A stretch of 64,000 nt of DNA from Paenibacillus sp. FSL H8-0537 (GTDB taxonomy: Bacteria; Bacillota; Bacilli; Paenibacillales; Paenibacillaceae), in contig NZ_CP150290.1 in assembly GCF_038051995.1 (NCBI RefSeq), positions 1,661,501 to 1,725,500 of the forward strand, given 5' to 3'. The notes below the pieces were generated by a model. It did no database searches. It saw only the letters and a program-made list of their open reading frames with translations, and was not told the origin of the DNA. Shown here piece by piece: positions 21,404-53,247 of the stretch (position 1 is its first letter; each line of letters begins with the position of its first letter). A program made the translations under genes and the position numbers.

Positions 21404-21514
21404 AAAAGGTTGGTTTCCGATCGCCATTACCCTTGAATTTCCTCGAATCCCCTTCCATAAAGGGGGAAATTCAAGGGTAAAAGCGAACGCTACGCTTCTC
21501 CAACTCAACCTTTT
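21404..21514 (-). repeat. Structured dispersed repeat, copy A (inverted)
   Basis: This is one of three copies of a roughly 110-base element, read here on the minus strand. It starts AAAAGGTTGAGTTGGAGAAG and ends GGCGATCGGAAACCAACCTTTT. The ends pair with each other, and an internal 14-pair perfect stem (ACCCTTGAATTTCC with GGAAATTCAAGGGT) encloses a second small hairpin. Weaker inverted similarity extends 30 bases further on both sides. No open frame is conserved between copies, so it appears to be a non-coding structured element. Confidence 0.8.
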
Positions 21515-21559
21515 CATTCCACTTCGCCTTTTTCATCTCCCTCCTAGGGGGAGGGAAAA

Positions 21560-21770
21560 GCAGCTTAGCCGCTTTTGCGCTTGCGCCGTAACTTTAAGTT
21601 CAAAACCAAGAACCAAAACCAAGAACCAAAACCAAGAACCAAAACCTTAGCGCTTGCGCCTTATCTTTAAGAGCCAAGAGTAAGAGCAGTAACAAATCTT
21701 TTACCGTATTCGCGTTTGCGTTATATGTTCGAGAGCCAGAGCAAGTGCGCTTGTTTTACGCTTAAGCGAG
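21560..21770 (+). repeat. Degenerate and 13-base tandem repeats
   Basis: CCAAAACCAAGAA is repeated about three and a half times at 21601-21648. Around it a degenerate unit beginning GCGCTTGCGCC recurs near 21578, 21651 and 21709, each followed by a related TTTAAG or TTCGAG segment and a CCAAGAG-like end. Together with copies A and B of the structured repeat this fills the gap between two cotranscribed permease genes. No gene is seen in it. Confidence 0.7.
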
Positions 21771-21916
21771 TGTATAAGCTTGGGAGCGAAGAGATCTTAA
21801 ACACAAAGATGTAGACAGTTATAAGAGTCAAATCAATTGGTTTCTGCTGTATGAATTCGATCTTTGTAGTTCGTGTTTTAGAAGGAGGGTGTTGGTGAAG
21901 GGGGCCTGAGCGGAGT

Positions 21917-22027
21917 AAAAGGTTTGAGCTGGAGAAGCGAATGCGTTCGCTTTTGTCCGTGGAAATTAACCGCTGGCGGTATAGTTGAAAATTTCCATGG
22001 GCAATGGCGATCGTAAGCCAAACTTTT
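21917..22027 (+). repeat. Structured dispersed repeat, copy B
   Basis: The direct-orientation partner of copy A, 400 bases away. It begins AAAAGGTTTGAGCTGGAGAAG and ends ATGGCGATCGTAAGCCAAAC. The internal stem (GTCCGTGGAAATT with AATTTCCATGGGC) pairs over 13 positions with two G-T pairs and encloses ACCG-CTGG-CGGT. The stem sequence differs wholly from those of copies A and C but has the same place and length. Flanking similarity extends to about 21891 and 22055. Confidence 0.8.
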
Positions 22028-22103
22028 TGCGCAGCGACGAACCTACCCTCACCAAGCGCACTTATTCTAATCACCGACACAAAGAGAACATGGAGGTTAC
22101 TTT

Positions 22104-22997
22104 ATGAAAATCAAAGACGACAGCTATATGCTGCTGTTCCGCATTATTGCTTTCACAGTTATTTTGCTCACGTCAATCGCTTGCCTGTTTCCGTTTCTGC
22201 TCATTGTCTCAGCTTCGTTCACTCAGAACGAATCGATTCTCCGCGACGGGTATCATTTAATCCCGCAGGTGTTTTCACTCGAAGGCTACAAAACGGTACT
22301 GCGATTCCCGCAGCAGGTCATCAATGCCTACACCGTAACGATCATTACGACAGTTGTCGGTACATTTCTCGGTCTGTTTTTCATTACGATGGCCGGTTAC
22401 GTTCTGCAGCGCAGAGATTTTAAATATCGGAATTTTTTCTCCTTCTTTATTTATTTCACGACGCTGTTCGGGGGCGGCCTTGTGCCGTGGTACATTATGC
22501 TGACGAAATATTTGCAGCTCACCGATACGTATGCGGTGCTCATTCTTCCAGGACTTATGACGCCGTTTCTCATTATATTGATGAAAAATTTCATCCGCTC
22601 CGCCGTTCCCGATGAGGTAACGGAATCGGCCAAAATCGATGGCGCGAATGATTTTACGATCTACGCTCGCATCGTGCTGCAATTATCGATGCCAGGCATC
22701 GCAACCGTCGGGCTGTTCCTGGCGCTGGCTTACTGGAATGACTGGTTTACATCCTCACTGTTCATTAATGACACGACGATGTACCAGCTTCAATATTATC
22801 TCTACAATATCATCAATGCGATGAGCTTCCTGTCACAGATGGGAGCAGGCACAGGCGTTTCGCTTGGTGGCGACATGCCGATGGAATCGACCAAGATGGC
22901 AATGGCGATTATTGTTACCGGCCCGATTTTGTTCCTCTACCCTTTCGTTCAGCGTTATTTTGTAAAAGGCTTGACGATTGGGGCTGTAAAAGGTTAG
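22104..22997 (+). CDS. Sugar ABC transporter permease (YtcP-like)
   Basis: A 297-residue CUT1 permease, partner of the one at 20449-21372. It has six predicted helices and the EAA loop EVTESAKIDGANDFTIYARIVLQL near residue 172. The C-terminal RYFVKGLTIGAVKG is the standard ending of this subfamily. TGGAGG precedes the ATG at a good distance. The solute-binding lipoprotein gene follows after 85 bases, so these genes form one importer whose ATPase must be supplied from elsewhere, as with MsmX. Confidence 0.93.
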   Translation: MKIKDDSYMLLFRIIAFTVILLTSIACLFPFLLIVSASFTQNESILRDGYHLIPQVFSLEGYKTVLRFPQQVINAYTVTIITTVVGTFLGLFFITMAGYVLQRRDFKYRNFFSFFIYFTTLFGGGLVPWYIMLTKYLQLTDTYAVLILPGLMTPFLIILMKNFIRSAVPDEVTESAKIDGANDFTIYARIVLQLSMPGIATVGLFLALAYWNDWFTSSLFINDTTMYQLQYYLYNIINAMSFLSQMGAGTGVSLGGDMPMESTKMAMAIIVTGPILFLYPFVQRYFVKGLTIGAVKG

Positions 22998-23082
22998 AAC
23001 TGTACCAGAGTGCATAGCGACAAGCTTGCTACTAGGGTCCAGCTAACATATATAGGTTCAACTTATAAAAGGGAGGATTCAC

Positions 23083-24678
23083 ATGATGAAGAAAAAGAGC
23101 AAAGGTTTAGTCATGCTTCTCACCGTAATGCTGCTTATGAGCATGATCGCAGCTTGCAGCGGCAATGGTGGCGGAAATACGGCAGCATCCAGTAGTCCAG
23201 CAGATAGCGCAGGAGCTACCGCATCTCCGGACAATGCGCAAGCAGGCGAGAAAACGGGTATCGATACTTCCAAAAAAGTAGAATTGCAATTTTATATGCT
23301 AGGCGATGCGCCGAAGGATTTGGCTGCGATTCAAGACAAAATCAACGAAATGGCGCTTCAGGATTTGAATGCAACCGTCAAATTCAACTACACGTCATGG
23401 ACCGATTGGGAGCAAAAATATAAATTGCTGCTTGGCTCCGGCCAACAGGTCGACCTGATCTTTACAGCAGAATGGACGCAATACCAGTCCTATGCGAAAA
23501 AAGGCGCTTTCCAGCCACTCGACAAGCTGCTTCCTGTAGCTGCGCCGAAGCTGAATGAATTTGTGCCAAAAGATATGTGGGATGCGGTTAAAATCGACAA
23601 TCAAATCTTTACCGTTCCGGCAACGTACAAAGAGTATGTAACGAATGGTTTCGTATGGCGGGAGGATCTTCGTAAAAAATACAACCTTCCTGAACCAAAA
23701 GACTTGAAAACGTATGAAGAGTATTTGGCTGGCATTAAAGCCAATGAGCCGAGCATGCGTCCAATCGCACTTGGCGCAGACGTTCGCGGCAGCCTTGTGA
23801 ACCAAATTCGTGATATCGAGCACAAAGCAATTGGCGCGCTGCCTTATGGTCTTGGCGTGAACTACTTTGAGCCAGGCAACATTTACACGTACTGGGGCTC
23901 GGATGAGCAAAAAGCGGATTTGGAGCTGATTCAACGCTGGCAGAAAAACGGCTACATCCCGAAAAACGTGCTCAACATCAACGACGTTATTCAGGAGCAG
24001 CTGACAAGCGGCAAAGCAGCAACGATTTTCGGGGACAACCCAACTCGTTTTAATGATTCGGTTATTAAAGTGCAAGCGGCTCACCCGGATTGGGAGCTGA
24101 AATACTACCCATTCCCGCTTACAACAGGCATTGCAACACCAGTACATGCCATTCATAACGGCTATGCGATTCCAACCAGCAGCAAAAACGCAGAGCGTGC
24201 ACTGGCATTCTATGAAAAAATGGTTACAGACAAACGCTACAACCTGTTGACTCAATACGGTGTTGAAGGCAAAAACTATGAAGTGAAAGATGGTTACTAC
24301 CAAATGATCGGCGATGCAAGCTCCAACGGCTTTGCTCGTGAAGGAATGAACGGCTGGGCTTGGAGAAATCCAGAATTCATGCTGTTTGACAAAAACTATG
24401 ACGGCGTAAAAGCGATCTTCGACGAGCTGGACAAAATCCAAGTTCCAGACAAATTTAACGGCTTTGCCGAAGATTACAGCACTTACCAAGCCGAGAGAGC
24501 AGCACTTGAGCAAGTGGAGAAGCAATATCTGTTCCCGCTGCAAGCTGGTCTCGTAGACAATATCGAGGAAGGCTTGAAAACATTCATGGACAAAGCGAAG
24601 CAAGCTGGACTTGAGAAAATTCAAGCTGATTACACGAAACAATGGCAAGCTTATGTAACAGAAAATAATATTAAATAA
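23083..24678 (+). CDS. Extracellular solute-binding lipoprotein of the sugar importer
   Basis: A 531-residue binding protein (family 1, LplA-like). A lipoprotein signal peptide ends in the lipobox MIAAC, with Cys about residue 25, followed by a flexible Gly/Ser/Ala stretch. The mature protein has the sizes and segments usual for oligosaccharide-binding partners of LplB/YtcP permeases (DLIFTAEWTQYQSYAKKGAF, FGDNPTRFNDSVIK). It should sit on the outer face of the membrane and deliver an oligosaccharide to the two upstream permeases. The exact sugar is unknown; the neighbouring GH42 remnant hints at galactosides. Two consecutive ATGs begin the frame after GGGAGGA. Confidence 0.93.
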   Translation: MMKKKSKGLVMLLTVMLLMSMIAACSGNGGGNTAASSSPADSAGATASPDNAQAGEKTGIDTSKKVELQFYMLGDAPKDLAAIQDKINEMALQDLNATVKFNYTSWTDWEQKYKLLLGSGQQVDLIFTAEWTQYQSYAKKGAFQPLDKLLPVAAPKLNEFVPKDMWDAVKIDNQIFTVPATYKEYVTNGFVWREDLRKKYNLPEPKDLKTYEEYLAGIKANEPSMRPIALGADVRGSLVNQIRDIEHKAIGALPYGLGVNYFEPGNIYTYWGSDEQKADLELIQRWQKNGYIPKNVLNINDVIQEQLTSGKAATIFGDNPTRFNDSVIKVQAAHPDWELKYYPFPLTTGIATPVHAIHNGYAIPTSSKNAERALAFYEKMVTDKRYNLLTQYGVEGKNYEVKDGYYQMIGDASSNGFAREGMNGWAWRNPEFMLFDKNYDGVKAIFDELDKIQVPDKFNGFAEDYSTYQAERAALEQVEKQYLFPLQAGLVDNIEEGLKTFMDKAKQAGLEKIQADYTKQWQAYVTENNIK

Positions 24679-24719
24679 ACGACAAACTCGTACCAGAGGC
24701 AGCTCTCGGTATAGGTGGA

Positions 24720-24763
24720 AAAGCGGCGGTGTGTCCCTGAGGGACATAACTGCCGCTTTTCTT
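24720..24763 (+). terminator. Terminator of the importer operon
   Basis: AAAGCGGCGGTGTGTCCC and GGGACATAACTGCCGCTTTT form a long imperfect stem around a TGA loop, ending in TTTTC. Confidence 0.8.
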
Positions 24764-24952
24764 ATGCAATAAGAGAGGAGATAAGATGCAGACGCTAGTC
24801 GATGCCGTGAGGTATATGAATCAAGTAGTACAATGACAGTTAAATGATTAACGGATATTCGACCTTTTGAATCAAGCGCTTACATAGCGGACTATGCTAC
24901 AATACATTTATAGTGATCCTTCTTATAAAAGGTTTAGAGAGGATGTTAATCA

Positions 24953-26113
24953 TTGGATAAAGTCAGAATTGGCATATTAGGCCTTGGAAATATGGGAACG
25001 GGACACGCCCGTTATTTGATTGAAGGAAGAGTAGAGGGCGCCGTGCTTGCGGCGGTGACAGATGTGCGGCCCGAACGTTTAGAGCTGGCAGCTCAGGAGT
25101 GGGGCACAGAACTAAAGCTGTATTCGACGGCAGAGGAACTATTCAGCTCAGGTGAGGTGGACGCGGTGTTCATCTGCACACCGCATTATGATCATCCGCA
25201 GCAGGCAACCGCAGCGCTGAAGGCTGGGCTGCATGTATTAATTGAAAAGCCTGCTGGCGTTTATACAAAACAGGTTCGTGAGATGAATGAAGCGGCAGCG
25301 CACAGCAATAAAGTATTCGGCATTATGTACAATCAACGCACGAATCCGCTATATGCGAAGCTTCGCGATTTGATTACATCCGGGGAGCTTGGGGAAGTTC
25401 GCCGCACGAACTGGATTATTACGAACTGGTACCGCTCGCAGAGCTATTATGATTCCGGCGGATGGCGTGCAACGTGGGCTGGCGAAGGTGGCGGCGTACT
25501 GCTGAACCAAGACCCGCATCAGCTTGACCTGTGGCAGTGGACGACAGGGATGATGCCGAAGCGCGTACGTGCTTTTTGCTCCTTTGGCAAACATCGTGAC
25601 ATTGAAGTGGAGAACGATGTGACGGCTTATGTGGAATATGAAAATGGAGCAACCGGTGTATTTGTCACTTCGACCTTTGAATCACCGGGCACAAATCGTT
25701 TTGAGATTTCCGGTGAACGCGGCAAAATTGTCATTGAAAATGACAAAATGACGTTCTCGCGGCTACGCGTGTCTGAAACCGAATTTAATGCTAACTTTAA
25801 AGGCGGCTTCGGCCAGCCGGAATGTTGGAAATTTGAAATTCCGGTCAGTGATGGCGGCAATCACATGAGCATTACTCAGGATTGGGTAAATGCGATCCTG
25901 CATGGCACGCCACTGCTTGCTCCTGGCGAAGAGGGAATTAAGGGACTGGAGCTATCCAATGCGATGCTGCTTTCCACTTGGACCGATGGATGGGTCGATC
26001 TTCCGATTAACGAGGATTTATTTTATGAGAAGCTTCAGGAGAGAATACGCAGCTCGGATAAGAACAAAGATATGAACAGTTATGAGACGCTGGATGTTAA
26101 AGGTACCCATTAA
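24953..26113 (+). CDS. Gfo/Idh/MocA family oxidoreductase
   Basis: A 386-residue NAD(P)-dependent sugar or inositol dehydrogenase-like enzyme. The Rossmann motif is at the N-terminus (IGILGLGNMGTGHARYL), and the catalytic-Lys region is LIEKPAGVYTKQ near residue 98, with GGVLLNQDPHQLDLWQW as the typical substrate-domain His motif. Such proteins oxidise or epimerise sugars using a bound nicotinamide. The start is TTG at 24953 after GAGAGGA. It opens an operon of five genes on the same strand (two oxidoreductases, isomerase, AraC regulator, esterase), which suggests breakdown of an unusual sugar. Confidence 0.9.
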   Translation: MDKVRIGILGLGNMGTGHARYLIEGRVEGAVLAAVTDVRPERLELAAQEWGTELKLYSTAEELFSSGEVDAVFICTPHYDHPQQATAALKAGLHVLIEKPAGVYTKQVREMNEAAAHSNKVFGIMYNQRTNPLYAKLRDLITSGELGEVRRTNWIITNWYRSQSYYDSGGWRATWAGEGGGVLLNQDPHQLDLWQWTTGMMPKRVRAFCSFGKHRDIEVENDVTAYVEYENGATGVFVTSTFESPGTNRFEISGERGKIVIENDKMTFSRLRVSETEFNANFKGGFGQPECWKFEIPVSDGGNHMSITQDWVNAILHGTPLLAPGEEGIKGLELSNAMLLSTWTDGWVDLPINEDLFYEKLQERIRSSDKNKDMNSYETLDVKGTH

Positions 26114-26148
26114 ATACTAACGAGCAAGCGAGAGGGAGGCAATATTTT

Positions 26149-27219
26149 ATGTCAACAGCAAATGGAATGAACTATGCCCCGAAAGGCAAGCCAAAGCCAG
26201 TAGTTAAAGAGGGAGAATTTGTATTCGCTGCTTTGTCGCTTGATCATGGACATATCTATGGCATGTGTAATGGTCTTCGTGAAGCGGGCGGTACACTCAA
26301 GTGGGTTTATGATCCAGACCCGAAGAAGGTAGAAGCGTTTGTACGCGCCTATCCTGAGGTTCGCCCGGCGGAATCGAAGCAGCAAATTTTGCAGGATGCG
26401 GAAGTGGTGCTCGTTGCAGCAGCGGCGATAACGAATTTGCGCGGCCCGCTTGGCGTCGAGGTTATGAAGCATGGCAAGCATTATTTTACCGACAAAGCGC
26501 CGTTTACGACGCTTGAGCAGTTGGCTGAGGCGCGTAAAGTAACGGCGGCTACAGGCAAAATTTATGCAGTTTATTACAGCGAACGCTTACATGTGGAATC
26601 CGCAGAGTTCGCTGGGCAGCTTGTGAAGGACGGAGCTGTTGGTCGTGTGCTGAATGTATTGGGGTTGGGACCGCATCGTTTGAATGCAGCGGCTAGGCCT
26701 GACTGGTTCTTCAATAAGGAACAGTACGGCGGCATTATTTGTGATCTTGCCAGCCATCAAATTGAGCAGTTTCTGTATTTCGCCGGCTGCAAGGATGCGA
26801 CGGTGCAATCCAGCAAAATAGCTAATTACAATAACAAGCAATACCCAGAGCTTGAGGACTTTGGTGACGTTACAATGATTGGCGACAACGGGGCTACTCA
26901 TTATTCTCGCGTGGACTGGTTTACACCGGATGGCTTGTCTACTTGGGGAGATGGGCGGACGATTATTCTCGGCACAGAAGGCTATATCGAGCTGCGCAAA
27001 TATGTCGATTTGACGAGAGGTGGCAGCGACCATCTGTTCCTCGTGAATGGAGGCGGCGAGCAAAAAATTGATGTGAAGGACAAGGTAGGATTCCCTTATT
27101 TTGGAGCGCTTATTCTTGATTGCTTGAATGGCACGGAGCTTGCGATGACGCAGGCGCATACGTTTAAAGCGGCAGAGCTGAGCTTGCAGGCGCAATTGCA
27201 GGCTGTCCGGGTCGAATAG
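26149..27219 (+). CDS. Gfo/Idh/MocA family oxidoreductase with DKAP motif
   Basis: A 356-residue protein related to the preceding enzyme. Its N-terminus carries an extra 25 residues before the nucleotide-binding strand, and the usual G-x-G-x-x-G loop is replaced by SLDHGHIYGMCNGL. The catalytic EKP signature is changed to DKAP (HYFTDKAPFTT, near residue 113). This belongs to a divergent subfamily seen in sugar-catabolism clusters, and the true cofactor use is uncertain. The conserved GGIICDLASHQIEQFLYF supplies the active-site Asp and His. It is probably cotranscribed with the preceding gene, after a 35-base gap. Confidence 0.85.
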   Translation: MSTANGMNYAPKGKPKPVVKEGEFVFAALSLDHGHIYGMCNGLREAGGTLKWVYDPDPKKVEAFVRAYPEVRPAESKQQILQDAEVVLVAAAAITNLRGPLGVEVMKHGKHYFTDKAPFTTLEQLAEARKVTAATGKIYAVYYSERLHVESAEFAGQLVKDGAVGRVLNVLGLGPHRLNAAARPDWFFNKEQYGGIICDLASHQIEQFLYFAGCKDATVQSSKIANYNNKQYPELEDFGDVTMIGDNGATHYSRVDWFTPDGLSTWGDGRTIILGTEGYIELRKYVDLTRGGSDHLFLVNGGGEQKIDVKDKVGFPYFGALILDCLNGTELAMTQAHTFKAAELSLQAQLQAVRVE

Positions 27220-27279
27220 GGAAGGAGCGGAGGGAGCAAAGCATACAATAGGGTTCGAGGAAGGGAGAAGGGTGAATCG

Positions 27280-28146
27280 ATGATGAAATTGTCTGTATTT
27301 ACGGTAGCAACACCGGAGCTGGGGCCCGAGGAGCTGGCAGCCGCGGCGCAAGAGGCGGGAATTCATGCTGTAGAATGGCGCTACAAGGAAGCGCCCGATG
27401 CGGCTGTGGCGAGTCAGGAGCCTTCTTTCTGGGGCAACAACCGTTGTACGATTTTCCCTTCAGGCGGAGATGACATGCTGGGCCGCTTCGGAAAGGCTGC
27501 GGCTGATCATGGACTGACAACGCTCAGCCTGACCCCATATCTTACCGCTGGCGATTTGGAGGCTACCGAGCAGGTGCTGAAAGCGGCGAAGCGGGTAGGG
27601 GCGTCCTTTATCCGGGTTGGTGTTCCGAGTTATGACCGCACAAGGCCATTCGGCGAGCTGTTCACGCTGGCACGGACGTATTTGCAGCAAACCCAGGAGC
27701 TATGCCGGAAGTATGGCGTTAAAGGCTTAGTCGAGACCCATCATCAGACGATTGCGGCAAGCGCTTCCGCGGCTTATCGGCTATGCGAAGGGCTGGACCC
27801 AGATTGTATTGGCGTACTTTACGATCCCGGCAACATGGTTTACGAAGGCTTTGAAAACTACCGGATGGGGCTAGAGCTGCTAGGTCCGTATTTGGCACAT
27901 GTGCATGTGAAAAATGCGAGCTGGCAAGCTGGCCCAGAGGAAACGGATGGCAGCATTAGCTGGAAGGCAGACTGGACGGGACTTGCTAAAGGGGTAGTGC
28001 CGTGGAAGCAAATCATTGAGGATTTGCAGGCTGTCGGCTACTACGGCTATCTCGGCATTGAAGATTTCAGCAAGGAATTTGCGGAGTCTCCAGACATGCT
28101 GCGTCATTTTGTCCGCTATATTAACGGACTGCAGTCGCAAGGTTAA
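27280..28146 (+). CDS. Sugar phosphate isomerase/epimerase (TIM barrel)
   Basis: A 288-residue xylose-isomerase-like TIM-barrel protein. Metal-ligand segments include VKGLVETHHQ near residue 150, GVLYDPGNMVYEG near 183, HVHVKNASW near 207 and YLGIEDFSKEF near 250, each with the Glu, Asp or His residues expected to hold a divalent metal. Members isomerise or epimerise keto sugars and inositol derivatives. It sits between the two oxidoreductases and an AraC regulator, so it probably acts on their product. The first of two ATGs is used after GGAAGGGAGAAGGG. Confidence 0.9.
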   Translation: MMKLSVFTVATPELGPEELAAAAQEAGIHAVEWRYKEAPDAAVASQEPSFWGNNRCTIFPSGGDDMLGRFGKAAADHGLTTLSLTPYLTAGDLEATEQVLKAAKRVGASFIRVGVPSYDRTRPFGELFTLARTYLQQTQELCRKYGVKGLVETHHQTIAASASAAYRLCEGLDPDCIGVLYDPGNMVYEGFENYRMGLELLGPYLAHVHVKNASWQAGPEETDGSISWKADWTGLAKGVVPWKQIIEDLQAVGYYGYLGIEDFSKEFAESPDMLRHFVRYINGLQSQG

Positions 28147-28147
28147 A

Positions 28148-28966
28148 ATGATCGATTTCAGCTACCAAATCCAAACACCGCTTGAACCTATTTTTCATTC
28201 GCATACCTATTATGAGGTTTATTATTTTCATGAAGGAAAATGCAACTATTTGATAGGCGATCAAATATATCATATGCAGCCGGGCGATTTGATGATTTTG
28301 TTCGGCATGACCCTGCATTGCGCCAAAATCGACCCTTCGGTTCCTTATGTGCGTTCGATTGTCCATTTCGAGCCTTCGCTGCTGCGCCCGCTGCTGGAGC
28401 TGCCGCAGGCGCTTAATGTCATGGAACCGTTTGAGGAGCTGCGCAACCACCGCCTGCGGCTCAGAGGCGAGCATAAGGAAGAGTCTGAGCGGCTTCTGGC
28501 TCAAATGCATGTGCATCAGCAGCGGGGCGATGCGATAGGCAGCAACCGCCTGCTGCTTGCCTTTGTTGATCTATTATATTTTATTTTTGGTTTATGCGAG
28601 CAGCCACTGAGGGAACGGCAAGAGTTTTCTACGGATAAGGAGCAGACGGTTCAGCGCATCATTTCTTTGCTGGAGCACAGCTATACAGACGATTTGCATA
28701 TGGAGCAGCTGGAAGAAAGGCTTCATCTAAGCAAGTCGTATATCGCTAGGCTGTTTAAGGATGTGACGGGTGTAACGGTGTTTCACTATGTGTATCGAAG
28801 GCGGATCAATGAGGCGAAAATCATCTTTTTGATGGAACCGTCCGTCACGGTTACAGAAGCTTGCTATCGCCTTGGTTATAAGCATTTAGCTCATTTCAGC
28901 AGAATGTTCAAGCAGTTCGTCGGTGTATCGCCAGAGCAGTTCAAGCGGCGCGAGACGCAAGGCTAA
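28148..28966 (+). CDS. AraC-family regulator with cupin domain
   Basis: A 272-residue cytoplasmic regulator. Residues about 1-110 form a cupin ligand-binding domain (HSHTYYEVYYF, with metal-type His residues, and MQPGDLMILFG). The C-terminal third contains the two helix-turn-helix units (LEERLHLSKSYIARLFKDVTG and ACYRLGYKHLAHFSRMFKQFVG). An open frame continues upstream to 28016 inside the isomerase gene, but the domain starts at the ATG at 28148, one base after the isomerase stop. It probably controls its own operon in response to the sugar. Confidence 0.9.
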   Translation: MIDFSYQIQTPLEPIFHSHTYYEVYYFHEGKCNYLIGDQIYHMQPGDLMILFGMTLHCAKIDPSVPYVRSIVHFEPSLLRPLLELPQALNVMEPFEELRNHRLRLRGEHKEESERLLAQMHVHQQRGDAIGSNRLLLAFVDLLYFIFGLCEQPLRERQEFSTDKEQTVQRIISLLEHSYTDDLHMEQLEERLHLSKSYIARLFKDVTGVTVFHYVYRRRINEAKIIFLMEPSVTVTEACYRLGYKHLAHFSRMFKQFVGVSPEQFKRRETQG

Positions 28967-28992
28967 TCGTGAAAATAAGGGGAATGATTAGG

Positions 28993-29649: not shown

Positions 29650-29671
29650 AATGGGCTGAAGCCCAGAAGAG

Positions 29672-34109: not shown

Positions 34110-34111
34110 AA

Positions 34112-45140: not shown

Positions 45141-45761
45141 ATGCGTTCTTTATTACTAATTGAACATAAAGCAGTCGAGCGGGAGTCTGAACAACAGAAA
45201 AACCAGGCAGACCGTGATTTAAGCAGGCTATTCCCTGAAGTTATATTGGAATCCAGCGGTTATTTTGTTTTGCATGGCAGCAGCGAGGAGCTTGCGCGCA
45301 AGCATATCGCTCAATCGGATGCGATAGTATTAAATCTCCCATTAAACGAAGTAAAGTATTGGGGCACTAAGCTGCTGGGTTGGAAAAAGATTCCGATGCT
45401 TTGGTGGTGCAGTGCCGAAACCGCAACGCTTTCGAATGCTTTTTGCGAGGATGATCTTCCGGTGGATGGCATCATTACGCCGCTTATGAGCGAGCAGGAG
45501 CTGCATTGGGCATTCCATTTTGGCGCAAAGCAATGCAGTGAGCGTCAGCAATGGCATATGGAGCGCCAGCAGCTCGAAGGCCGTCTGGAAGAACGGAAAT
45601 GGATCGACATGGCGAAGGGTATTTTATGCGACATTAAGAAAGTTTCCGAAGCGGAGGCTTATGACTTGCTGCGCAAGCAGGCGATGAATGAACGCAAACG
45701 TCTCGTGGATGTAGCGACATCCATTGTGAAGGTTTATCAGCTGCTGCAGGAGCAAAAATAA
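45141..45761 (+). CDS. ANTAR-domain antiterminator (nitrate/nitrite regulation)
   Basis: A 206-residue regulator. The last about 60 residues (ERKWIDMAKGILCDIKKVSE, then EAYDLLRKQAMNERKRLVDV) form the ANTAR RNA-binding three-helix domain. The N-terminal 130 residues look like a degenerate receiver domain (SDAIVLNLPLNEVKYWG, DGIITPLMSEQEL) lacking a clear phosphorylation Asp. It is divergent from nirB, whose leader contains a terminator, so it probably prevents termination when nitrate or nitrite is present, as NasR and related proteins do. AGGAGGGGG stands before the ATG. The next gene (TrpD2-like) is cotranscribed. Confidence 0.87.
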   Translation: MRSLLLIEHKAVERESEQQKNQADRDLSRLFPEVILESSGYFVLHGSSEELARKHIAQSDAIVLNLPLNEVKYWGTKLLGWKKIPMLWWCSAETATLSNAFCEDDLPVDGIITPLMSEQELHWAFHFGAKQCSERQQWHMERQQLEGRLEERKWIDMAKGILCDIKKVSEAEAYDLLRKQAMNERKRLVDVATSIVKVYQLLQEQK

Positions 45762-45773
45762 GGGGGAGTACCA

Positions 45774-46841
45774 ATGATTACCAATCTACTGAAGGAAGTC
45801 GGGCGCGGCAAAAGGGGGGCGCGTGATTTGACCTATGATGAAGCGGTGCAAGCAGCCGAATGGATTGTGAATCTGGAGGCGACTCAGGCTCAGATTGGCG
45901 CTTTTTTTATGGCGGAGCGAATTAAAATGGAAAGCGTTGAGGAGCTCGAAGCTTTCGTCAACGTGTGCCGGAGCCAGGCCCGCCGTGAGCATGTGCAGGA
46001 GGGAATTGACTGTGCAGGACCATACGACGGCAGGAAAAAATCATTTTACGCCACCTTCGCGACCTCCTTCGTCTTAGCGGCTGCTGGATTGCCGGTTACG
46101 CTGCACGGCACAGCTTCGCTTCCTCCCAAATGGGGCATTACGCTGCAGGATCTGCTGCTTGAGCTGGGTATAGATCCGAAGCAGCTCTCACAGGAGGCAT
46201 CACTTGAAGCTGCTAGGGAGACGGGCATTCTGTTCGTTCCAGCAGAAGAGTGGTGTCCGCCGCTTAAGCGGCTGCATGGACTGCGTGAGGAAATGGGTAT
46301 GCGAACGGTGCTGAACACAGCTGAGAAGCTTGTCGATTATGGGCATTCGCCTTATATCATATTCGGCGTTTATCACAATACGGTGTTTGACCGCACGTCC
46401 AAGCTAATGATGAATTTGAACTATAAGAAGGCGCTCATTGTCCAAGGAACGGAGGGCTCGGAGGATTTGTTCATCGAGCGGCCAACCAGGACGTATCAGG
46501 TGGAAAACGGTGAAGCCAGCCTGCAAATCATCGATCCAGATGCGTATGGACTGGAGCTGACGCCTCCCGAGGTGGACTGGACGCCTGCCGAGCAAATTGC
46601 CGTGACGGAAGCTGTGCTTAACGGAGGTGGCCATCTTGCTTTTATGAACCAGGTGCTGCTTAATGCAGCGGTTCGGCTTCATTTGGCAGAGCGCGTCGAT
46701 TCCATTGAAGAAGGTTTGTATACATGCAAGGATTTGATCGACAATGGGACGGCATGGGAGCTCTATGTGAAGTGGAAGGTTAGCTTGCTTGTCTCGCTGC
46801 AGCAGCAGCCGCTTCATAAGGCGACTGTGACGACCCCTTAG
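45774..46841 (+). CDS. TrpD2/YbiB-like phosphoribosyltransferase family protein
   Basis: A 355-residue protein with the fold of anthranilate phosphoribosyltransferase: an N-terminal helical domain (RDLTYDEAVQAAEWIV; QIGAFFMAERIKMESVEEL) and a C-terminal domain. The glycine-rich PRPP loop of true TrpD enzymes (GTGGD) is absent; the corresponding region reads CAGPYDGRKKSFYATFA, so it is unlikely to make phosphoribosyl-anthranilate. Such TrpD2 proteins bind nucleic acids in some bacteria. It lies 12 bases after the ANTAR gene, suggesting a shared role in nitrogen control. The ribosome site is AGGGGGAG. Confidence 0.82.
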   Translation: MITNLLKEVGRGKRGARDLTYDEAVQAAEWIVNLEATQAQIGAFFMAERIKMESVEELEAFVNVCRSQARREHVQEGIDCAGPYDGRKKSFYATFATSFVLAAAGLPVTLHGTASLPPKWGITLQDLLLELGIDPKQLSQEASLEAARETGILFVPAEEWCPPLKRLHGLREEMGMRTVLNTAEKLVDYGHSPYIIFGVYHNTVFDRTSKLMMNLNYKKALIVQGTEGSEDLFIERPTRTYQVENGEASLQIIDPDAYGLELTPPEVDWTPAEQIAVTEAVLNGGGHLAFMNQVLLNAAVRLHLAERVDSIEEGLYTCKDLIDNGTAWELYVKWKVSLLVSLQQQPLHKATVTTP

Positions 46842-46876
46842 TCGTAACCGTGTATAGATATCCTATCATTTACATG

Positions 46877-46928
46877 AAAAAAGCAGTCTTCAAGCTCGCG
46901 TTGCGGGCAATTTGAAGGCTGCTTTTTG
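46877..46928. terminator. Bidirectional terminator after the TrpD2-like gene
   Basis: AAAAAGCAG-T-CTTCAA pairs with TTGAAG-G-CTGCTTTTT around an 18-base loop that itself contains a GCTCGC/GCGGGC-like pairing. Confidence 0.8.
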
Positions 46929-47074
46929 GTATGGAATGAGTTAGTGATCTTCGAGCACGAAGCAAAGCAGGCGATGCCAGATCGCCTGCTTGAATGAATA
47001 AAATCATAACTTAAAATCACAGCTTGTCCAATTGCCAGAATAGCAAGAGCTCAGCTTGCAGAAGCATACTTAGC

Positions 47075-47302
47075 TTAATAAAGGGAAATGGTTAACGTAT
47101 CCTTCTCATGATACGAATGCAGCGTAGCTTCGCTGCCGACAATTTCGACGCTGATCAGCGACTTGATACAGAGCTTAAGCGCATTTTTTCCAGTGTTCAG
47201 CTTGCGGTTCAGTACATCGGTCAGTTTCTCGACAGCTTTTTTATTCGTATCCGTTATATAGACGGGAATCGTTTTATTTTGAAACAACAGCATTGTTTTC
47301 AT
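47075..47302 (-). CDS. Small conserved-looking hypothetical protein
   Basis: A 75-residue basic protein with no signal and no recognised domain. It reads like a small alpha/beta protein: a strand (MLLFQNKTIPVYITD), a helix rich in Lys and Leu (AVEKLTDVLNRKLNTG), and two further strands (SVEIVGSEATLHSYH; TLTISLY). GGAGGAAA stands at the right distance before the ATG on the minus strand. It is a monocistronic gene between a convergent TrpD2-like gene and an AraC regulator gene. Nothing shows its function. Confidence 0.7.
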   Translation of the reverse strand: MKTMLLFQNKTIPVYITDTNKKAVEKLTDVLNRKLNTGKNALKLCIKSLISVEIVGSEATLHSYHEKDTLTISLY

Positions 47303-47452
47303 AAAGGATTTCCTCCGCTCATTGGCTAATTTTAATTTAACTTTACTTGATGAATCTTAAGCGAATCTTAAAAAAAAGTTATGAAAAGGTTACAAAATCG
47401 TAATTTTTTCTAAAAACATAAGAATGTATAAGTTTGCACCTATAATAGGCTT

Positions 47453-48421
47453 CTATTTCTCGGACTGAAACGCGCCTTGCCGCCAAAGAGCAGCGACAGC
47501 CGTTTCACCTTGTAATGCGCCATTTTGGACCGGATTCCGCTTTTGCTTGCGAAAATCGGAGGGGGTGCAGTTCAACGTCTTGCGAAACACTTTAACAAAA
47601 TAGCTGATATGGTCGAAGCCGACCTCCAGCGCGATGTCTGAAATTTTGCGTTCCGTGTGCAGCAGCAGCTCGGCCGCCTGATTCACCCGATAGGCGTTCA
47701 AATATTCAACCGGCGTCTGTCTCGTCATTGATTTGAAAAAACGGAAAAACTGTCCTTCGCTCATCGGAATTTGCTCCGCCAGCTCGCCAATGCGTATTGG
47801 TCTGCGATAATGCAGCTGGATATAGAGGATGCTTTTCTTAAGCCGCTCTATTCGAGTTCTGTCATCCGATCTTGCCTCACTGCGATTGCACGCCCGGTTC
47901 TCAATGGCGATCTCATGCAGCATTAAGTAAAAATACCCTTTCACCGCAGCTTCGAATCCAGCATAAGGAGCTCTGCAGCAGTTGATCATCGATCGGAGCA
48001 GGAAGAGCAGCTGCCGCTTCCATCCGTTGTCCGGTGATATATGCCTCGGGAACGTCTTTTTCTTCTCCTGGAACGGACGAACGCAGGTTTCTTGTACAGC
48101 ATCGTAGCTTGTGCTATCCAGCCAGCGAACGTCAAAAACGATGGCGCAATAGGTGCAGGAGGAGCCATTTAAAGAGTGCCCCGCATGGATATCTCCGCTG
48201 TCGATGAAGACGGCTTCGCCTGCGCGAACGGGAAAATACTCAGTGTCAATCTGGAAGAGCATCTCGCCCTCTAATACAACTAGAAACTCAGCCTCGTCAT
48301 GCCAGTGGCAATCTACATTTACCTCACCAGGTGCATATTCCATCCAGTAAGCAGCAAGAGGAAAGGTAACATCGCCATGCATGCGGTCTTCCCTGAGCGA
48401 ATGACGCAGCGTCAGATCCAT
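47453..48421 (-). CDS. AraC-family regulator with cupin domain
   Basis: A 322-residue cytoplasmic regulator. The N-terminal cupin is seen in DCHWHDEAEFLVVLEGEMLF near residue 38 and VRAGEAVFIDSGDIHAGH near 65. The C-terminal HTH pair is LAEQIPMSEGQFFRFFKSMTR and VGFDHISYFVKVFRKTLNCTPSDFRK. ATG at 48421 is chosen, nine bases after GGAGG; the in-frame TTG at 48430 overlaps the ribosome site. It is divergent from the GH31 alpha-xylosidase gene, its probable target, in response to a xyloglucan sugar. Confidence 0.9.
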   Translation of the reverse strand: MDLTLRHSLREDRMHGDVTFPLAAYWMEYAPGEVNVDCHWHDEAEFLVVLEGEMLFQIDTEYFPVRAGEAVFIDSGDIHAGHSLNGSSCTYCAIVFDVRWLDSTSYDAVQETCVRPFQEKKKTFPRHISPDNGWKRQLLFLLRSMINCCRAPYAGFEAAVKGYFYLMLHEIAIENRACNRSEARSDDRTRIERLKKSILYIQLHYRRPIRIGELAEQIPMSEGQFFRFFKSMTRQTPVEYLNAYRVNQAAELLLHTERKISDIALEVGFDHISYFVKVFRKTLNCTPSDFRKQKRNPVQNGALQGETAVAALWRQGAFQSEK

Positions 48422-48571
48422 TGCAGTCAACCTCCGGTGATGAAGAAATCAGAATGGTGTTATAAACGGGCATAATTCTGTTAGTTTGTTGCTTTGCTTA
48501 TCAGTATAATGCAAAATAGAACGATTTTAAAGTCAAATAACCTATATAAAAGCAGAAAGGTCGGTTCTATT

Positions 48572-50893
48572 ATGAAATTTACTGACGGCAACTGGATGCT
48601 GCGCAAACAGTATGACCTTTTGGGCGCGGTACAAGCCCATGATTTCGAGCAAAAGGATGGCGTGCTTACGGCTTATGCGTCTCCGCGTCCTATATTGTCA
48701 CGTTCCAATATGTTAGATACGATGCTGCTTACGGTTCGGTTTCATTCTCCGATGCCAGGCGTTGTCGGCGTTAAGCTGATTCATCACATGGGCGTGCGTG
48801 AGCGTGGTCCTGTATTCGAGCTGACGAAGGAAACCGGCCATTTCGTTACTATAGAAGAAACAGAAGAAGCGGCGATCCTGACAAGCGGCAGCCTCAGCGT
48901 CCATATTCGCAAAGGCCCGGAGTGGTCAGTGGATTTCTACCGCGGCTCCGAGCGCATTACTGGAAGCCGGCAGAAATCGATGGCGTATATTACGGAAGGC
49001 AAAGAGAAAGCCTATATGCGCGAAGAGCTGGATCTTGGTGTGGGCGAATGGGTTTATGGACTCGGCGAGCGTTTTACACCTTTCGTGCGCAACGGCCAGG
49101 TCGTCGATATTTGGAATCAGGATGGCGGCACAAGCTCCGAGCAAGCGTACAAAAATATTCCTTTCTATGTAACGAATAAAGGCTACGGCGTATTCGTCAA
49201 CCAACCGGATCTTGTTTCCTTTGAGATTGCCTCGGAGAAAGTGAAAAAGGTTCAATTCCATGTGACTGGCGAATCCCTTGAATATTTCGTTATTGATGGC
49301 CCGACGATTAAAGAGGTGCTTGGCAAATATACCGAGCTGACAGGCAAGCCTTCTTTGCCGCCGGCATGGACGTTCGGCCTGTGGCTGTCGACCTCTTTTA
49401 CAACAAATTATGATGAAGCAACGGTGAACTCCTTCGTCGATGGCATGGAAGAGCGCGGTTTGCCGCTGCATGTATTCCACTTCGACTGTTTCTGGATGCG
49501 CGATTTCCACTGGACGGATTTCAAATGGGACGAGCGGATATTCCCGGACCCTGTCGGCATGCTGAAGCGCCTGAAAGAGAAGGGGCTCAAAATATGTGTA
49601 TGGATTAACCCTTACATTGCGCAGCGCTCCCGTCTGTTTGAAGAGGGCAGAGACAATGGCTATTTGATCAAAAAGCCAAATGGCGACGTATGGCAATGGG
49701 ATATGTGGCAGCCTGGCATGGGTATCGTGGACTTCACGAATCCTGCGGCATGTGAATGGTACAAGGGCTACCTGCGTGAGCTTGTAGATATGGGCGTCGA
49801 CAGCTTTAAAACCGACTTCGGCGAGCGGATTCCGACCGATGTGGTGTACCATGACGGCTCTGACCCTGAAAAAATGCATAATTTCTACACCTACCAATAC
49901 AACAAGGTTGTATTTGAGGTATTGGAAGAGAAGCTGGGCAAAAATGAAGCTGCGCTGTTCGCGCGTTCCGCTACCGTTGGCGGTCAGAAATTCCCGGTTC
50001 ACTGGGGCGGCGACTGCTACGCGGATTATGAGTCAATGGCAGAATCGCTGCGTGGCGGCCTGTCGCTGGGCTTGTCCGGCTTTGGCTTCTGGAGCCATGA
50101 TATCGGCGGCTTTGAGAGCACAGCTCCAGCCCATGTCTTCAAACGCTGGCTTGCGTTTGGCTTGCTTTCCAGCCACAGCCGTCTGCATGGCAGCAGATCG
50201 TACCGTGTGCCTTGGGCGTATGACACGGAGGCGGTTGATGTTACCCGCTTCTTCACGAAGCTCAAATGCAGCCTGATGCCTTACCTGTTTAATACAGCTG
50301 CGCAAGCGGTGGAGCAAGGTTTGCCGTCGATGCGTGCAATGGTGCTGGAATTCCCGGAAGATCCAACATCCGAGTTCCTTGATCGCCAGTACATGCTGGG
50401 TGATTCCATTATGGTTGCTCCTGTATTCGACGAAAACGGCTTTGTGCAATATTATTTACCGGAAGGCAGCTGGACGCATCTACTGACTGGAGAGATCGTA
50501 GAAGGTGGAAAATGGTTCAAGGAAACGCATAACTTCCTCTCGCTTCCATTGTTCGTCCGTCCAAATTCGATCATCGCAATCGGTGCGAATGATAGGAAAC
50601 CGGATTATGACTATGCTGACGGCGTGAAGCTGACGGCTTACAGCCTTGCTGATGGAGCATCGGCATCAACCACGGTTCGCGACATTAAAGGCGCTGCCGA
50701 ACTGCTCGTTACCATGAAACGCGAAGGCAATGAAGTCGCAGTTAAAGTACAGGGCAGCGGCAAAGCGCTCAGCCTGGCACTTCACGGCATTGGTGAAATG
50801 GCTAAAGTCGATGGCGCTGCTTCGCTTCTGGGTGGCATTGTATCCATTGCTGCTGGCGTGAAAGAAACGGCATTGACGATTACGTTGAAGTAA
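48572..50893 (+). CDS. yicI: Alpha-xylosidase (GH31)
   Basis: A 773-residue glycoside hydrolase of family 31, matching the length of Escherichia coli YicI. The catalytic nucleophile is the Asp in DSFKTDFGERIP near residue 416, and the acid/base Asp is in HWGGDCYADYESM near 485. The N-terminal beta-domain (residues 1 to about 245) and the C-terminal beta-sandwich are both complete. It releases xylose from the non-reducing end of xyloglucan oligosaccharides inside the cell, since no signal peptide is seen. ATG at 48572 follows AAAGG at some distance. A strong terminator follows. Confidence 0.95.
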   Translation: MKFTDGNWMLRKQYDLLGAVQAHDFEQKDGVLTAYASPRPILSRSNMLDTMLLTVRFHSPMPGVVGVKLIHHMGVRERGPVFELTKETGHFVTIEETEEAAILTSGSLSVHIRKGPEWSVDFYRGSERITGSRQKSMAYITEGKEKAYMREELDLGVGEWVYGLGERFTPFVRNGQVVDIWNQDGGTSSEQAYKNIPFYVTNKGYGVFVNQPDLVSFEIASEKVKKVQFHVTGESLEYFVIDGPTIKEVLGKYTELTGKPSLPPAWTFGLWLSTSFTTNYDEATVNSFVDGMEERGLPLHVFHFDCFWMRDFHWTDFKWDERIFPDPVGMLKRLKEKGLKICVWINPYIAQRSRLFEEGRDNGYLIKKPNGDVWQWDMWQPGMGIVDFTNPAACEWYKGYLRELVDMGVDSFKTDFGERIPTDVVYHDGSDPEKMHNFYTYQYNKVVFEVLEEKLGKNEAALFARSATVGGQKFPVHWGGDCYADYESMAESLRGGLSLGLSGFGFWSHDIGGFESTAPAHVFKRWLAFGLLSSHSRLHGSRSYRVPWAYDTEAVDVTRFFTKLKCSLMPYLFNTAAQAVEQGLPSMRAMVLEFPEDPTSEFLDRQYMLGDSIMVAPVFDENGFVQYYLPEGSWTHLLTGEIVEGGKWFKETHNFLSLPLFVRPNSIIAIGANDRKPDYDYADGVKLTAYSLADGASASTTVRDIKGAAELLVTMKREGNEVAVKVQGSGKALSLALHGIGEMAKVDGAASLLGGIVSIAAGVKETALTITLK

Positions 50894-50952
50894 ATGAAAT
50901 AAATATTGAAATAAACAAACGGCATAATGCTGGATGTTTATCTAAAACAGAC

Positions 50953-51001
50953 CAACGCCTTGTGACGACCGGACCAACAGTCGTCGCAGGGCGTTTTTTT
51001 C
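50953..51001 (+). terminator. Terminator after the alpha-xylosidase gene
   Basis: AACGCCTTGTGACGAC and GTCGTCGCAGGGCGTT form a long stem around a ten-base loop, followed by a T7 run. Confidence 0.88.
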
Positions 51002-51147
51002 CTGGAGTAAAAGTCAGCATTCAACAAAATAACATATAAAAAGACTAACATGACAGCTGTTTTTTGCAGCGCTCCTTCTATATAATTTGAAAGGTGAGGT
51101 ACAAGACTTGAGAAACTAAATTCACAATATAAAGGAGTGCGGCCAAA

Positions 51148-51918
51148 GTGGGACAAATCGGAATTGGTTTACAATTGTATACGCTCCGTGACGCAACAGC
51201 GGAAGACTTCGAAGGTACGCTGCGCAAGGTTGCGGCAATGGGCTATGAAGGCGTGGAGTTTGCAGGTTATGGCGGTATTGAAGCGGAGAAAATGCGTGAT
51301 TTGCTCCAAGAGCTTGGATTGAAAGCAATCGGAAGCCATATCGGCCTGCATTTGCTGGAGAGCCAGCTGGACGAAGAAATCGCTTACTTGAAAACAATTG
51401 GCGCAAAATATGCGATTTGTCCTTATTTGCTGGATGATCAGCGCAGCGCTGAAGCCTGGGCGAAGCATTTTGTAGCTTTTGAGGAATACGGTAAACGTTT
51501 CCGCGAGGCGGGTATTGATTTTGCTTATCATAACCATGATTTTGAATTTAAAGTGGAAATCGACGGCAAAGAAGTGTTTGATGCGCTTTATGAGCGAATC
51601 AGCCCTGAACTGTTGAAAGTAGAAATGGATATCGGCTGGGTACAATTTTCCGGCAAAGATCCGCTTGCTTACATTGCGAAATATGCAGGACGTCTGCCTT
51701 TGCTTCATTTGAAGGACTACCGCGACAACAATGGCCAACTGCCAATAGATACGGTAGAACTGGGCCGTGGCGATCTTCCGCTGCTTCCTATCATTAATAG
51801 TGCGGTTGAAGCGGGTGCAGAATGGCTGATCGTTGAGCAGGACACTTGCGCGAATCCGCCGCTTGAAGCAGTAGCGGAAAGCATGGACTGGCTGAAAAAG
51901 AATTTTCTGAACGCTTAA
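51148..51918 (+). CDS. Sugar phosphate isomerase/epimerase
   Basis: A 256-residue TIM-barrel protein of the xylose-isomerase-like superfamily. Metal-site segments are FAYHNHDFEFKV near residue 126, KVEMDIGWVQFSG near 155, LLHLKDYRD near 184 and WLIVEQDTC near 230. The start GTG at 51148 has AAAGGAG ahead. The gene pairs with the oxidoreductase that follows, a frequent arrangement in pathways for inositol and 3-keto sugars. Its substrate is not known. Confidence 0.92.
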   Translation: MGQIGIGLQLYTLRDATAEDFEGTLRKVAAMGYEGVEFAGYGGIEAEKMRDLLQELGLKAIGSHIGLHLLESQLDEEIAYLKTIGAKYAICPYLLDDQRSAEAWAKHFVAFEEYGKRFREAGIDFAYHNHDFEFKVEIDGKEVFDALYERISPELLKVEMDIGWVQFSGKDPLAYIAKYAGRLPLLHLKDYRDNNGQLPIDTVELGRGDLPLLPIINSAVEAGAEWLIVEQDTCANPPLEAVAESMDWLKKNFLNA

Positions 51919-51975
51919 TATGCGAATTTGGCTTGACCCTATACATTAATTATTGAAAAGGCAGGGATACATTTC

Positions 51976-52995
51976 ATGAGCAAAATTAGAGTAGCAGTAG
52001 TAGGCTGTGGTTCCATCTCCAAATATCGTCACATTCCGGAGTATGCAGACAATGAGAATGTAGAATTAGTCGCATTCGTTGATCCGGTTATTGAGCGTGC
52101 AGAAGGCTATGCGGAGAAGCATGGCGGCAAAGCCTTTGCAGACTATGAGACGATGCTGGCTGAAATCAAGCCGGATGCGGTTAGCGTATGTACACCGAAT
52201 GCGCTTCATGCACCAGTAGCCATTGCGGCAGCAAATGCTGGCGCACATGTATTGGTTGAGAAGCCGATGGCAGCTACGGATGAAGAAGCGGCAGCAATGA
52301 TTGAAGCGGCAGCGAAAAATGGCGTTAAGCTGATGGTTGGACATAACCAACGCTTCATGCCGCCGCATGTAAAAGCGAAGGAATTGCTGAAAACGGGCAT
52401 TATCGGCAAAGTATTGACATTCCGTACGTCGTTCGGCCACCCAGGTCCGGATGCATGGAGCATTGACGGCGCAGAAAGCTGGTTTTTCCGCAAGCCGGAA
52501 GCGATCATGGGCGCAATGGGCGATCTTGGCGTGCACAAATCCGACCTGATCCGTTGGCTGCTGGACGATGAAGTGACTCAAATTGCTGGCTTCGTTGGCA
52601 CAGTAGACAAAGACAGCGATGTAGACGACAACGCAAACTGCGTGCTTCGCATGAAGAGCGGCGCAATGGGTTCGCTAGTAGCTAGCTGGACTTATTATAA
52701 AGGTGAGGACAACAGCACGATTTTGTGGGGCTCCAAAGGCGTTATGAAAATCGGTACGCACCCAGAAGATCAAGTAATCATTGAGCTGCGCGACGGTACA
52801 GTGGAGCGCTACAAAACAGGTGAAATCTCCACAAATGAGAAGCAGCTGTCGAGTTTCGTGATCGATAAATTCATTGATTCCATCGTCAATGACACAACTC
52901 CTGCTGTAACGGGCGAAGAGGGCCGCAAATCACTTAAAGTTATTTTGAGCGCCTTCGAATCCCAAGCAACGGGCAAATTCATCGACATCAACTAA
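51976..52995 (+). CDS. Gfo/Idh/MocA family oxidoreductase
   Basis: A 339-residue NAD(P)-dependent dehydrogenase-like protein. The Rossmann motif is VAVVGCGSISKYRHIPEY at the N-terminus; the catalytic Lys is in VLVEKPMAATDEEAAAMI near residue 96; GAMGDLGVHKSDLIRWLL near 182 supplies the active-site Asp and His. It probably oxidises a sugar or inositol at carbon 3 and works with the isomerase gene 57 bases upstream, transcribed from the same promoter. The next gene in this direction is 470 bases away, after terminators and a structured repeat. Confidence 0.93.
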   Translation: MSKIRVAVVGCGSISKYRHIPEYADNENVELVAFVDPVIERAEGYAEKHGGKAFADYETMLAEIKPDAVSVCTPNALHAPVAIAAANAGAHVLVEKPMAATDEEAAAMIEAAAKNGVKLMVGHNQRFMPPHVKAKELLKTGIIGKVLTFRTSFGHPGPDAWSIDGAESWFFRKPEAIMGAMGDLGVHKSDLIRWLLDDEVTQIAGFVGTVDKDSDVDDNANCVLRMKSGAMGSLVASWTYYKGEDNSTILWGSKGVMKIGTHPEDQVIIELRDGTVERYKTGEISTNEKQLSSFVIDKFIDSIVNDTTPAVTGEEGRKSLKVILSAFESQATGKFIDIN

Positions 52996-53031
52996 TTATT
53001 ATTCATTGATCTATTCACACTCTCTATATGG

Positions 53032-53100
53032 TAGGGATAACAAGCTAAGCGCGTTATCCCTAAAAAACTGCCTTCGCCGACTTAAATGGTGAAGGCTTTT
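53032..53100 (+). terminator. Two consecutive hairpins, the second with a T run
   Basis: TAGGGATAAC and GTTATCCCTA (53032-53062) form a ten-pair stem followed by A bases; then GCCTTCGCC pairs with GGTGAAGGC (about 53070-53096), followed by TTTT. Together they end the isomerase-oxidoreductase operon. Confidence 0.75.
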
Positions 53101-53133
53101 AAAATTGGTGGTGAAGAGTGGCAAGTGGTGGAG

Positions 53134-53247
53134 TGAAAGGTTTGAGCTGGAGAAGCGTGAGCGTTCGTTTTTGCCTTTGCATTTCAACCGTTGAGCGGTC
53201 TAATTCATGAAATGCAAAGGCAATGACGATCGTAGACCAAACCTTTC
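53134..53247 (+). repeat. Structured dispersed repeat, copy C
   Basis: The third copy of the element found at 21404 and 21917. AAAGGTTTGAGCTGGAGAAG begins it and CAATGACGATCGTAGACC with CAAACCTTT ends it; the terminal nine bases pair perfectly. An inner 13-pair stem GCCTTTGCATTTC/GAAATGCAAAGGC encloses ACCG-TTGAG-CGGT. Similarity between the outer flanks extends to about 53104 and 53281. No gene is seen around it up to the PadR gene. Confidence 0.8.

Follow-up and report, generated by a model that had tools for sequence, protein, structure and literature searches.

Intergenic palindromic repeats with RNA structure have been described in other bacteria. ERIC and YPAL are MITE-like (resembling miniature inverted-repeat transposable elements) intergenic palindromes of 100-200 bp that form one long RNA stem-loop; ERIC influences how stable an mRNA is, and the direction in which it lies makes a difference (PMC2229807). 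BOX elements of Streptococcus pneumoniae are structured, transcribed repeats with an optional module, boxB (PMC3049150), and the Bacillus cereus group carries bcr1-bcr18, Gram-positive intergenic repeats of which some are MITE-like, with bcr10 and bcr18 having conserved RNA structure and being found in transcripts (PMC3446304). REP/BIME sequences, associated with RAYT, are multi-copy extragenic palindromes with a much smaller unit of 20-40 bp (PMC3733652). The element described here, a palindrome of about 175 nucleotides (nt) with its outer helix included, was seen in three copies (A, B, and C) in a 64,000-nt stretch of the Paenibacillus sp. FSL H8-0537 genome (contig NZ_CP150290.1, positions 1,661,501 to 1,725,500; hereafter the window, whose own numbering is used throughout). 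It belongs to a formerly mobile, non-autonomous MITE-like family, and its transcript is read as a structured RNA hairpin that probably acts in cis on co-transcribed mRNAs (probability of this whole reading roughly 0.55).

A covariance model built from 17 copies after a pattern search (R1) matched all three window copies at very nearly the positions given in a preliminary description of the window, and a broader model (R2) was later built from 95 copies. The window copies and their parts, with approximate ends for the outer helix H1, are as follows.

21399..21517, minus strand: core (H2-H4) of copy A; R1 score 125.5 bits; fold z -6.2; antisense to the flanking permease genes
21373..21549, minus strand: copy A with outer helix H1, ends approximate; extended fold; starts close to a stop codon ending at 21372 (open reading frame list)
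21429..21442, minus strand: copy A, inner stem, arm 1, pairing with 21465-21478; sequence and fold
21465..21478, minus strand: copy A, inner stem, arm 2; sequence and fold
21915..22032, plus strand: core of copy B; R1 score 115 bits; fold z -5.3; sense to the flanking permease genes
21877..22070, plus strand: copy B with outer helix H1, ends approximate; extended fold
21955..21967, plus strand: copy B, 5′ arm of inner stem, with two G-U pairs to 21990-22002; sequence and fold
21990..22002, plus strand: copy B, 3′ arm of inner stem; sequence and fold
53133..53251, plus strand: core of copy C; R1 score 120.7 bits; fold z -8.2; between GFO/IDH/MocA oxidoreductase and PadR regulator genes
53104..53281, plus strand: copy C with outer helix H1, ends approximate; extended fold
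53173..53185, plus strand: copy C, 5′ arm of inner stem; sequence and fold
53209..53221, plus strand: copy C, 3′ arm of inner stem; sequence and fold

Folds of the extended copies give a nested order, from the outside in, of H1, an internal loop, H2, an asymmetric loop, H3, H4, and an apical part. The motif GGAGAAGCG is conserved on the 5′ side of the asymmetric loop between H2 and H3, and in H3 GCGTTCGC pairs with GCGATCG around a central pyrimidine mismatch, CGATCG being conserved. Loop sequences are common to the copies while the helices are nearly sequence-free, above all the inner stem H4, which differs in each copy and is self-complementary in all three window copies, as the preliminary description had it, including the two G-T pairs of copy B. 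The shared, mutually pairing ends reported there do form a helix; this is the middle helix H2 and not the end of the element, which H1 extends to about 175 nt. On the motif strand, none of 200 dinucleotide shuffles folded as well as any of the three copies. The opposite strands also fold well (z -6.6 for A, -2.6 for B, and -7.7 for C) because the copies are near-palindromes.

The structure is maintained across the family. Over 95 copies, 94 of them distinct, 31 of 36 pairs have changed on both sides while 95.7% of cells remain paired, and the covariation score of 0.605 compares with 0.185 for shuffles and no more than 0.119 when partners are slid. This alignment was fitted to the model and so leans towards structure, a worry made minor by the size of the score gap. 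Uncompensated breaks, which had been named beforehand as evidence against a structured RNA, do occur but are a minority (4.3% of cells unpaired).

A stricter view comes from orthologous copies, identified by their flanking sequence in three related genomes, the own genome (G000), G013, and G032 (32 copy pairs at 21 loci, one of which enters as a triangle; the set omits L139/L102, of which G000 has lost the left part, the pair L041/L119, which is inverted, the second copy at L129, and the majority of pairs between G013 and G032). In H4 and the apical helix, 24 of 492 aligned pairs have been replaced by a different Watson-Crick pair, both bases having changed, and such switches also occur in H2 (6/442) and H1 (8/722). 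By our arithmetic, H4 changes at about 10% per site, nearly the rate of the flanks, which differ at 11%; 28 double changes were seen in H4, 24 of them complementary, where independence would predict about 5, with about 2 complementary. One-sided changes took 15 H4 pairs from Watson-Crick to A-C or another mismatch and seven to G-U, and the larger losses of structure are deletions. Because double changes so far exceed expectation, H4 drifts in sequence yet keeps its pairing, copy by copy; individual copies are under selection.

The strand on which this selection acts can be read from the wobble pairs. A G-U pair is tolerated in RNA and an A-C pair is not, and for the complementary strand the two are exchanged. 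Every palindrome was compared with its reverse complement, an alignment that treats G-U and A-C equally, and strand was assigned by sequence motif and not by wobble pairs (where both strands were scored, they are almost always tens of bits apart). Two sets of copies were kept. One comprised 87 copies from 74 + 89 match rows (42 from the own genome, and 27 from G013 and 18 from G032 drawn from the strongest matches listed), leaving out opposite-strand echoes and the remnants L137, L140, and L123:354-397. The other comprised 83 copies from named species, from 159 rows, with full matches of at least 58 bits, leaving out echoes and partial, insert-bearing, and weaker rows; some named copies are orthologous to each other, so counts are not fully independent. 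The motif was placed in 82 of the 83 copies from named species and in 78 of the other 87, and H3 was omitted from the count on account of its fixed non-Watson-Crick columns.

In the final count, on 116 of the 125 copies from the own genome and named species, H2 and H4 together hold 122 G-U against 41 A-C on the motif strand (p 1.5e-10), whereas H1 of the same copies holds 63 against 64. The G-U excess in the core, set against none in H1, therefore indicates that selection reads the core as RNA. The excess depends on orientation, with G-U to A-C at 63:10 in copies sense to both neighbouring genes and 26:12 in antisense copies (Fisher p 0.043), or 79:11 and 35:17 with the two relatives added (p 0.004), a comparison in which orthologues repeat; all of these p values assume independent mismatches, which are not fully independent. 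The core is selected as motif-strand RNA, more so where a gene transcript would carry it. Together with the covariation and the compensatory change between orthologues, this bears out the earlier suggestion that selection acts on the structure.

The three copies first reported are a small part of the family. In the 7.0-Mb own genome, R1 gave 61 matches with E no higher than 0.1, many of which are opposite-strand echoes, and 42 copies were kept, some partly degenerate, besides short deletion remnants. Searches of other Paenibacillus genomes with a covariance model, proposed earlier as a check, likewise returned many further copies. A search of relatives found the element in 39 of 60 genomes (own included), with none to 61 matches per genome in the genus (37 genomes; scored rows, echoes included), and among 296 genomes from the order, the own genome included, R2 found it in 249. 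In a draw of 398 genomes from the class, 38 were positive (the own genome, 36 of the same family, and one of the same order), all within that one order; copy numbers per genome in these order and class surveys are lower bounds. A pattern scan of named genomes gave at least 120 stretches, and among 80 listed, 79 were from Paenibacillus and one from Saccharibacillus. A strain of P. polymyxa is among the carriers (L219).

Rfam at gathering score gave no match in the window or in 15 further loci, an RNase P search serving as a check that the RNA search works. A permissive Rfam search with one copy gave 15 matches, the best a microRNA at E 0.043, all below cut-offs and judged to be chance. Copy C had no match in phage and plasmid collections. 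In IMG/VR the short pattern occurs in 19 stretches, with a full match above 77 bits in six (L155, L157, L158, L164, L166, and L168) and a weaker partial match in one (L165). Each of the six full elements is no more than about 850 bases from an end of its stored sequence, perhaps as host flank of a prophage.

The family has moved in the past. Among 12 own-genome sites compared with G013 and G032, the element is missing from both relatives at two (L039 and L045) and from a single one at two more (L051, empty in G013, and L057, empty in G032). Gap lengths between flank matches at L048 and L054 are consistent with the element being present in G013 and G032 alike, G032 carries a copy at L047 where G013 lacks it and some flank besides, and L034, L035, and L056 retain element remnants in one relative. 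A duplicated TATAAAAG-like stretch was seen at L039 only, the other sites being too diverged to define a target duplication. The outer arms are inverted repeats, but they vary between copies, and H1 and H2 differ between lineages as subfamilies. At L041 the element is inverted in place between G000 and G032, with its core deleted in G013 (L293, L294, and L295). Genome G021 carries a tandem array of four 151-base copies, 99% alike, adjoining a predicted solute-binding protein gene (L087:1639-2241), and further close series of copies occur at L201 and L373.

Candidate mobility partners were sought among Y1 transposases. A Y1_Tnp domain (PF01797) occurs in four of the 37 genus genomes (the own genome, G003, G014, and G035) and is missing from 13 of the 14 with at least 30 matches; no autonomous mobility partner was found in this test, which was confined to the Y1 family. 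A REP/RAYT system is not supported on these grounds, Y1 transposase being absent from most carriers in the genus, nor by size. The preliminary description had offered a non-coding RNA, an RNA processing site, or a mobile element of the REP/MITE kind; these are not mutually exclusive, and the evidence favours a MITE-like element with a selected structured RNA transcript, whose size does not support the strict REP option.

The interior has an optional third helix. Seven own-genome copies (two at L129, and L130, L131, L132, L133, and L136) measure 157-161 nt instead of about 118 nt, the added length being a hairpin of some 40 nt that always occupies the same spot in the left arm of H3. It is absent from the orthologues of the first L129 copy, L131, L133, and L136, and is seemingly common to G013 in the second L129 copy; G032 has it at the L047 site, where the own genome does not, and it is listed at L354 too. 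Two purC copies of another genus (L394 and L395) have a different hairpin at the same place, and their mutual differences there are compensated changes.

Placement is almost exclusively intergenic, with 124 of 125 copies (42 own-genome and 83 named) outside genes called by script. The 112 copies with a gene on both sides comprise 60 sense and 26 antisense to co-directional neighbours, 17 between convergent genes, and nine between divergent genes, and the 3′ (right) end is nearer to a gene in 79 of them. Neighbouring copies on opposite strands within 1.3 kb form nine divergent pairs, three of them orthologous pairs at purC, and three convergent ones, straddling purC. Copies A and B make up one of these divergent pairs, with an ABC permease gene on either side. 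The genes flanking the window copies are these.

20449..21372, plus strand: ABC transporter permease gene (BPD_transp_1), upstream of A/B; Pfam E 1.1e-17
22104..22997, plus strand: ABC transporter permease gene (BPD_transp_1), downstream of A/B; Pfam E 7.3e-11
51976..52995, plus strand: GFO/IDH/MocA oxidoreductase gene, upstream of C; Pfam
53467..53787, plus strand: PadR regulator gene, downstream of C; Pfam

The spacer between A and B holds a short tandem repeat of CCAAGAACCAAAA units (21600-21647), and a PHROGs search with one permease added nothing. Further upstream, a 429-amino-acid open reading frame (18812-20101) matches only the end of the GH42 catalytic profile (283-375 of 376) and the domains that follow it, and may be a beta-galactosidase gene that has been truncated or interrupted.

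No terminator-like site (a G+C hairpin followed by a T tract) was found in the A/B and C regions, and predicted promoters in the 5′ flanks show no clear excess (34/123, and 29/123 in shuffles); read-through transcription is therefore the likely source of element RNA. In the flanks of 122 copies, terminator-like hairpins number 38 and 33 on the two strands of the left flank and 10 and 16 on those of the right flank, a surplus due in part to the longer left gap. With the contig start assumed to be the origin, 31 of 42 own-genome copies lie on the leading strand. A replication-strand rule was not adopted, since all 23 copies sense to both neighbours are leading and the directions of gene and replication are inseparable.

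A concrete place to look for a function is the neighbourhood of purC. In P. taichungensis, P. pabuli, and P. xylanilyticus, copies occupy the gaps separating purB, purC, and what is taken to be purQ, a GATase_5 gene (assignments by Pfam in L186 and L233, and by protein similarity at the P. pabuli locus). Within the family, 24 of 44 purC loci have a copy within about 1.5 kb, in seven numbered genera (g1, g18, g19, g20, g23, g27, and g29), the 44 consisting of the top 30 matches among 59 genomes, of which 16 have a copy, and 14 hand-chosen from the other 29, of which eight do. Without the four loci of g19, the genus nearest to the species of the first sighting, 20 of 40 have a copy. The own genome and G032 have none around purC, and the calculated chance of a copy in a random 4-kb stretch of the own genome is about 2% (42 copies in 7.0 Mb). 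Positions and orientations around purC differ between genera, so repeated insertion instead of one ancient insertion is possible.

From placement, strand signature, and analogues (PMC2229807, PMC3446304, PMC3049150, PMC2267715, and PMC5670726, the last a published transcript map of P. riograndensis), a cis effect on mRNA processing or stability is suggested. A copy inserted between genes would be carried in vivo in the transcript of the neighbouring gene or operon, and the folded RNA would act on that mRNA. Its most likely role is in processing or stability, so that the upstream and downstream genes would have different fates. In the manner of ERIC and BOX, the hairpin may be where an endonuclease (RNase III, for example) enters, or a barrier to an exonuclease, and the host may gain from the result.

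Several observations weigh against this interpretation. Five of the 37 genus genomes have no match (G009, G011, G018 at 63% completeness, G019, and G025), and the element is therefore dispensable. Twenty-six of the 112 placed copies are antisense to both neighbours, where a gene transcript would carry the reverse complement, and these copies still lean to G-U (26:12). The 38 of 122 copies with a motif-strand terminator-like hairpin in their 5′ flank suggest that some of the family may not be included in the upstream transcript. Between orthologues, H4 pairs altered on one side only favour neither strand, with seven to G-U and six to A-C. H1 too is complementary without a strand bias, which leaves room for some of the palindrome being maintained as DNA.

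The last point is the natural starting place for a purely DNA-level account, in which the palindrome arms are copied from each other by template switching or arm recombination with no selection on RNA. The inversion in place at L041 demonstrates that flipping occurs, and between L055 and L104 several adjacent pairs have been replaced together. Such templating, though, cannot favour G-T over A-C on one strand, and the core does so at 122:41 while H1, an internal control, stands at 63:64, with orientation set by the sequence motif; as the whole explanation it is very improbable. The lean to G-U in antisense copies would also fit independent small RNA genes acting in trans, for example as sponges for a protein that binds RNA by reading GGAGAAGCG and CGATCG, and conserved loops shared amid nearly sequence-free helices suit such a protein. 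The lack of a clear promoter excess on the 5′ side and the variation from none to 61 matches per genus genome speak against trans action, which seems quite unlikely.

The RNA might instead serve the element itself, bound by a mobility protein, with selfish copies keeping their structure since only copies that fold can spread. Lineage-specific subfamilies, tandem arrays, empty sites, and copies in both orientations speak for this account, and the own genome has a Y1 transposase gene. Selection on source copies alone would, however, let fixed copies lose their pairing at the neutral rate, and H4 in orthologues has changed nearly as much as its flanks while its pairs were kept by double change. 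The distribution of Y1_Tnp, absent from nearly all copy-rich genomes of the genus, and the want of an autonomous partner in the Y1 search further reduce the case, and the selfish account is judged unlikely without being negligible.

A broader extension of the cis-acting interpretation may be entertained tentatively, that of an order-wide mobile RNA module whose insertions become locus-specific cis-regulatory RNAs kept by selection on shape. One host factor would read the conserved loops, the helices would be interchangeable, and the module would have been reused around purC in several genera. It has long been asked whether the MITE-like repeats of bacteria are junk or do work as RNA, and this family supplies data that are usually missing: dozens of copies per genome, orthologues, sequence-free helices in which compensation is visible, and H1 as a control for strand bias. 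As the element is common in a large order and has no Rfam match, it has been missed by annotation there. The purC copies are a place where function can be tested.

Compared with the described systems, the element shares several features of ERIC, NEMIS, and BOX, being of 100-200 bp, multi-copy, and intergenic, with a single long stem-loop (from predicted folds and covariation) and past mobility. It resembles ERIC/YPAL in size, placement, and its MITE-like nature, but those occur in other bacteria, and the Paenibacillus element differs in its nearly sequence-free helices, its strong compensation, and a target duplication at one site only. The optional third helix recalls boxB of the BOX elements; BOX is reported to be over-represented between convergent genes, where 17 of 112 copies of the present element lie, and the two are compared here by description. 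The bcr1-bcr18 repeats are likewise Gram-positive and intergenic but known from the B. cereus group, and are set beside the element by description only. REP/BIME sequences share its multi-copy, extragenic, palindromic character, and their units are far shorter than 175 nt. A Paenibacillus repeat of this kind was not found described in the literature searched, subscription papers being largely outside that search. The family is placed as one not found described in these searches, of the ERIC/BOX kind, which arose as a mobile element and whose RNA core is selected locus by locus.

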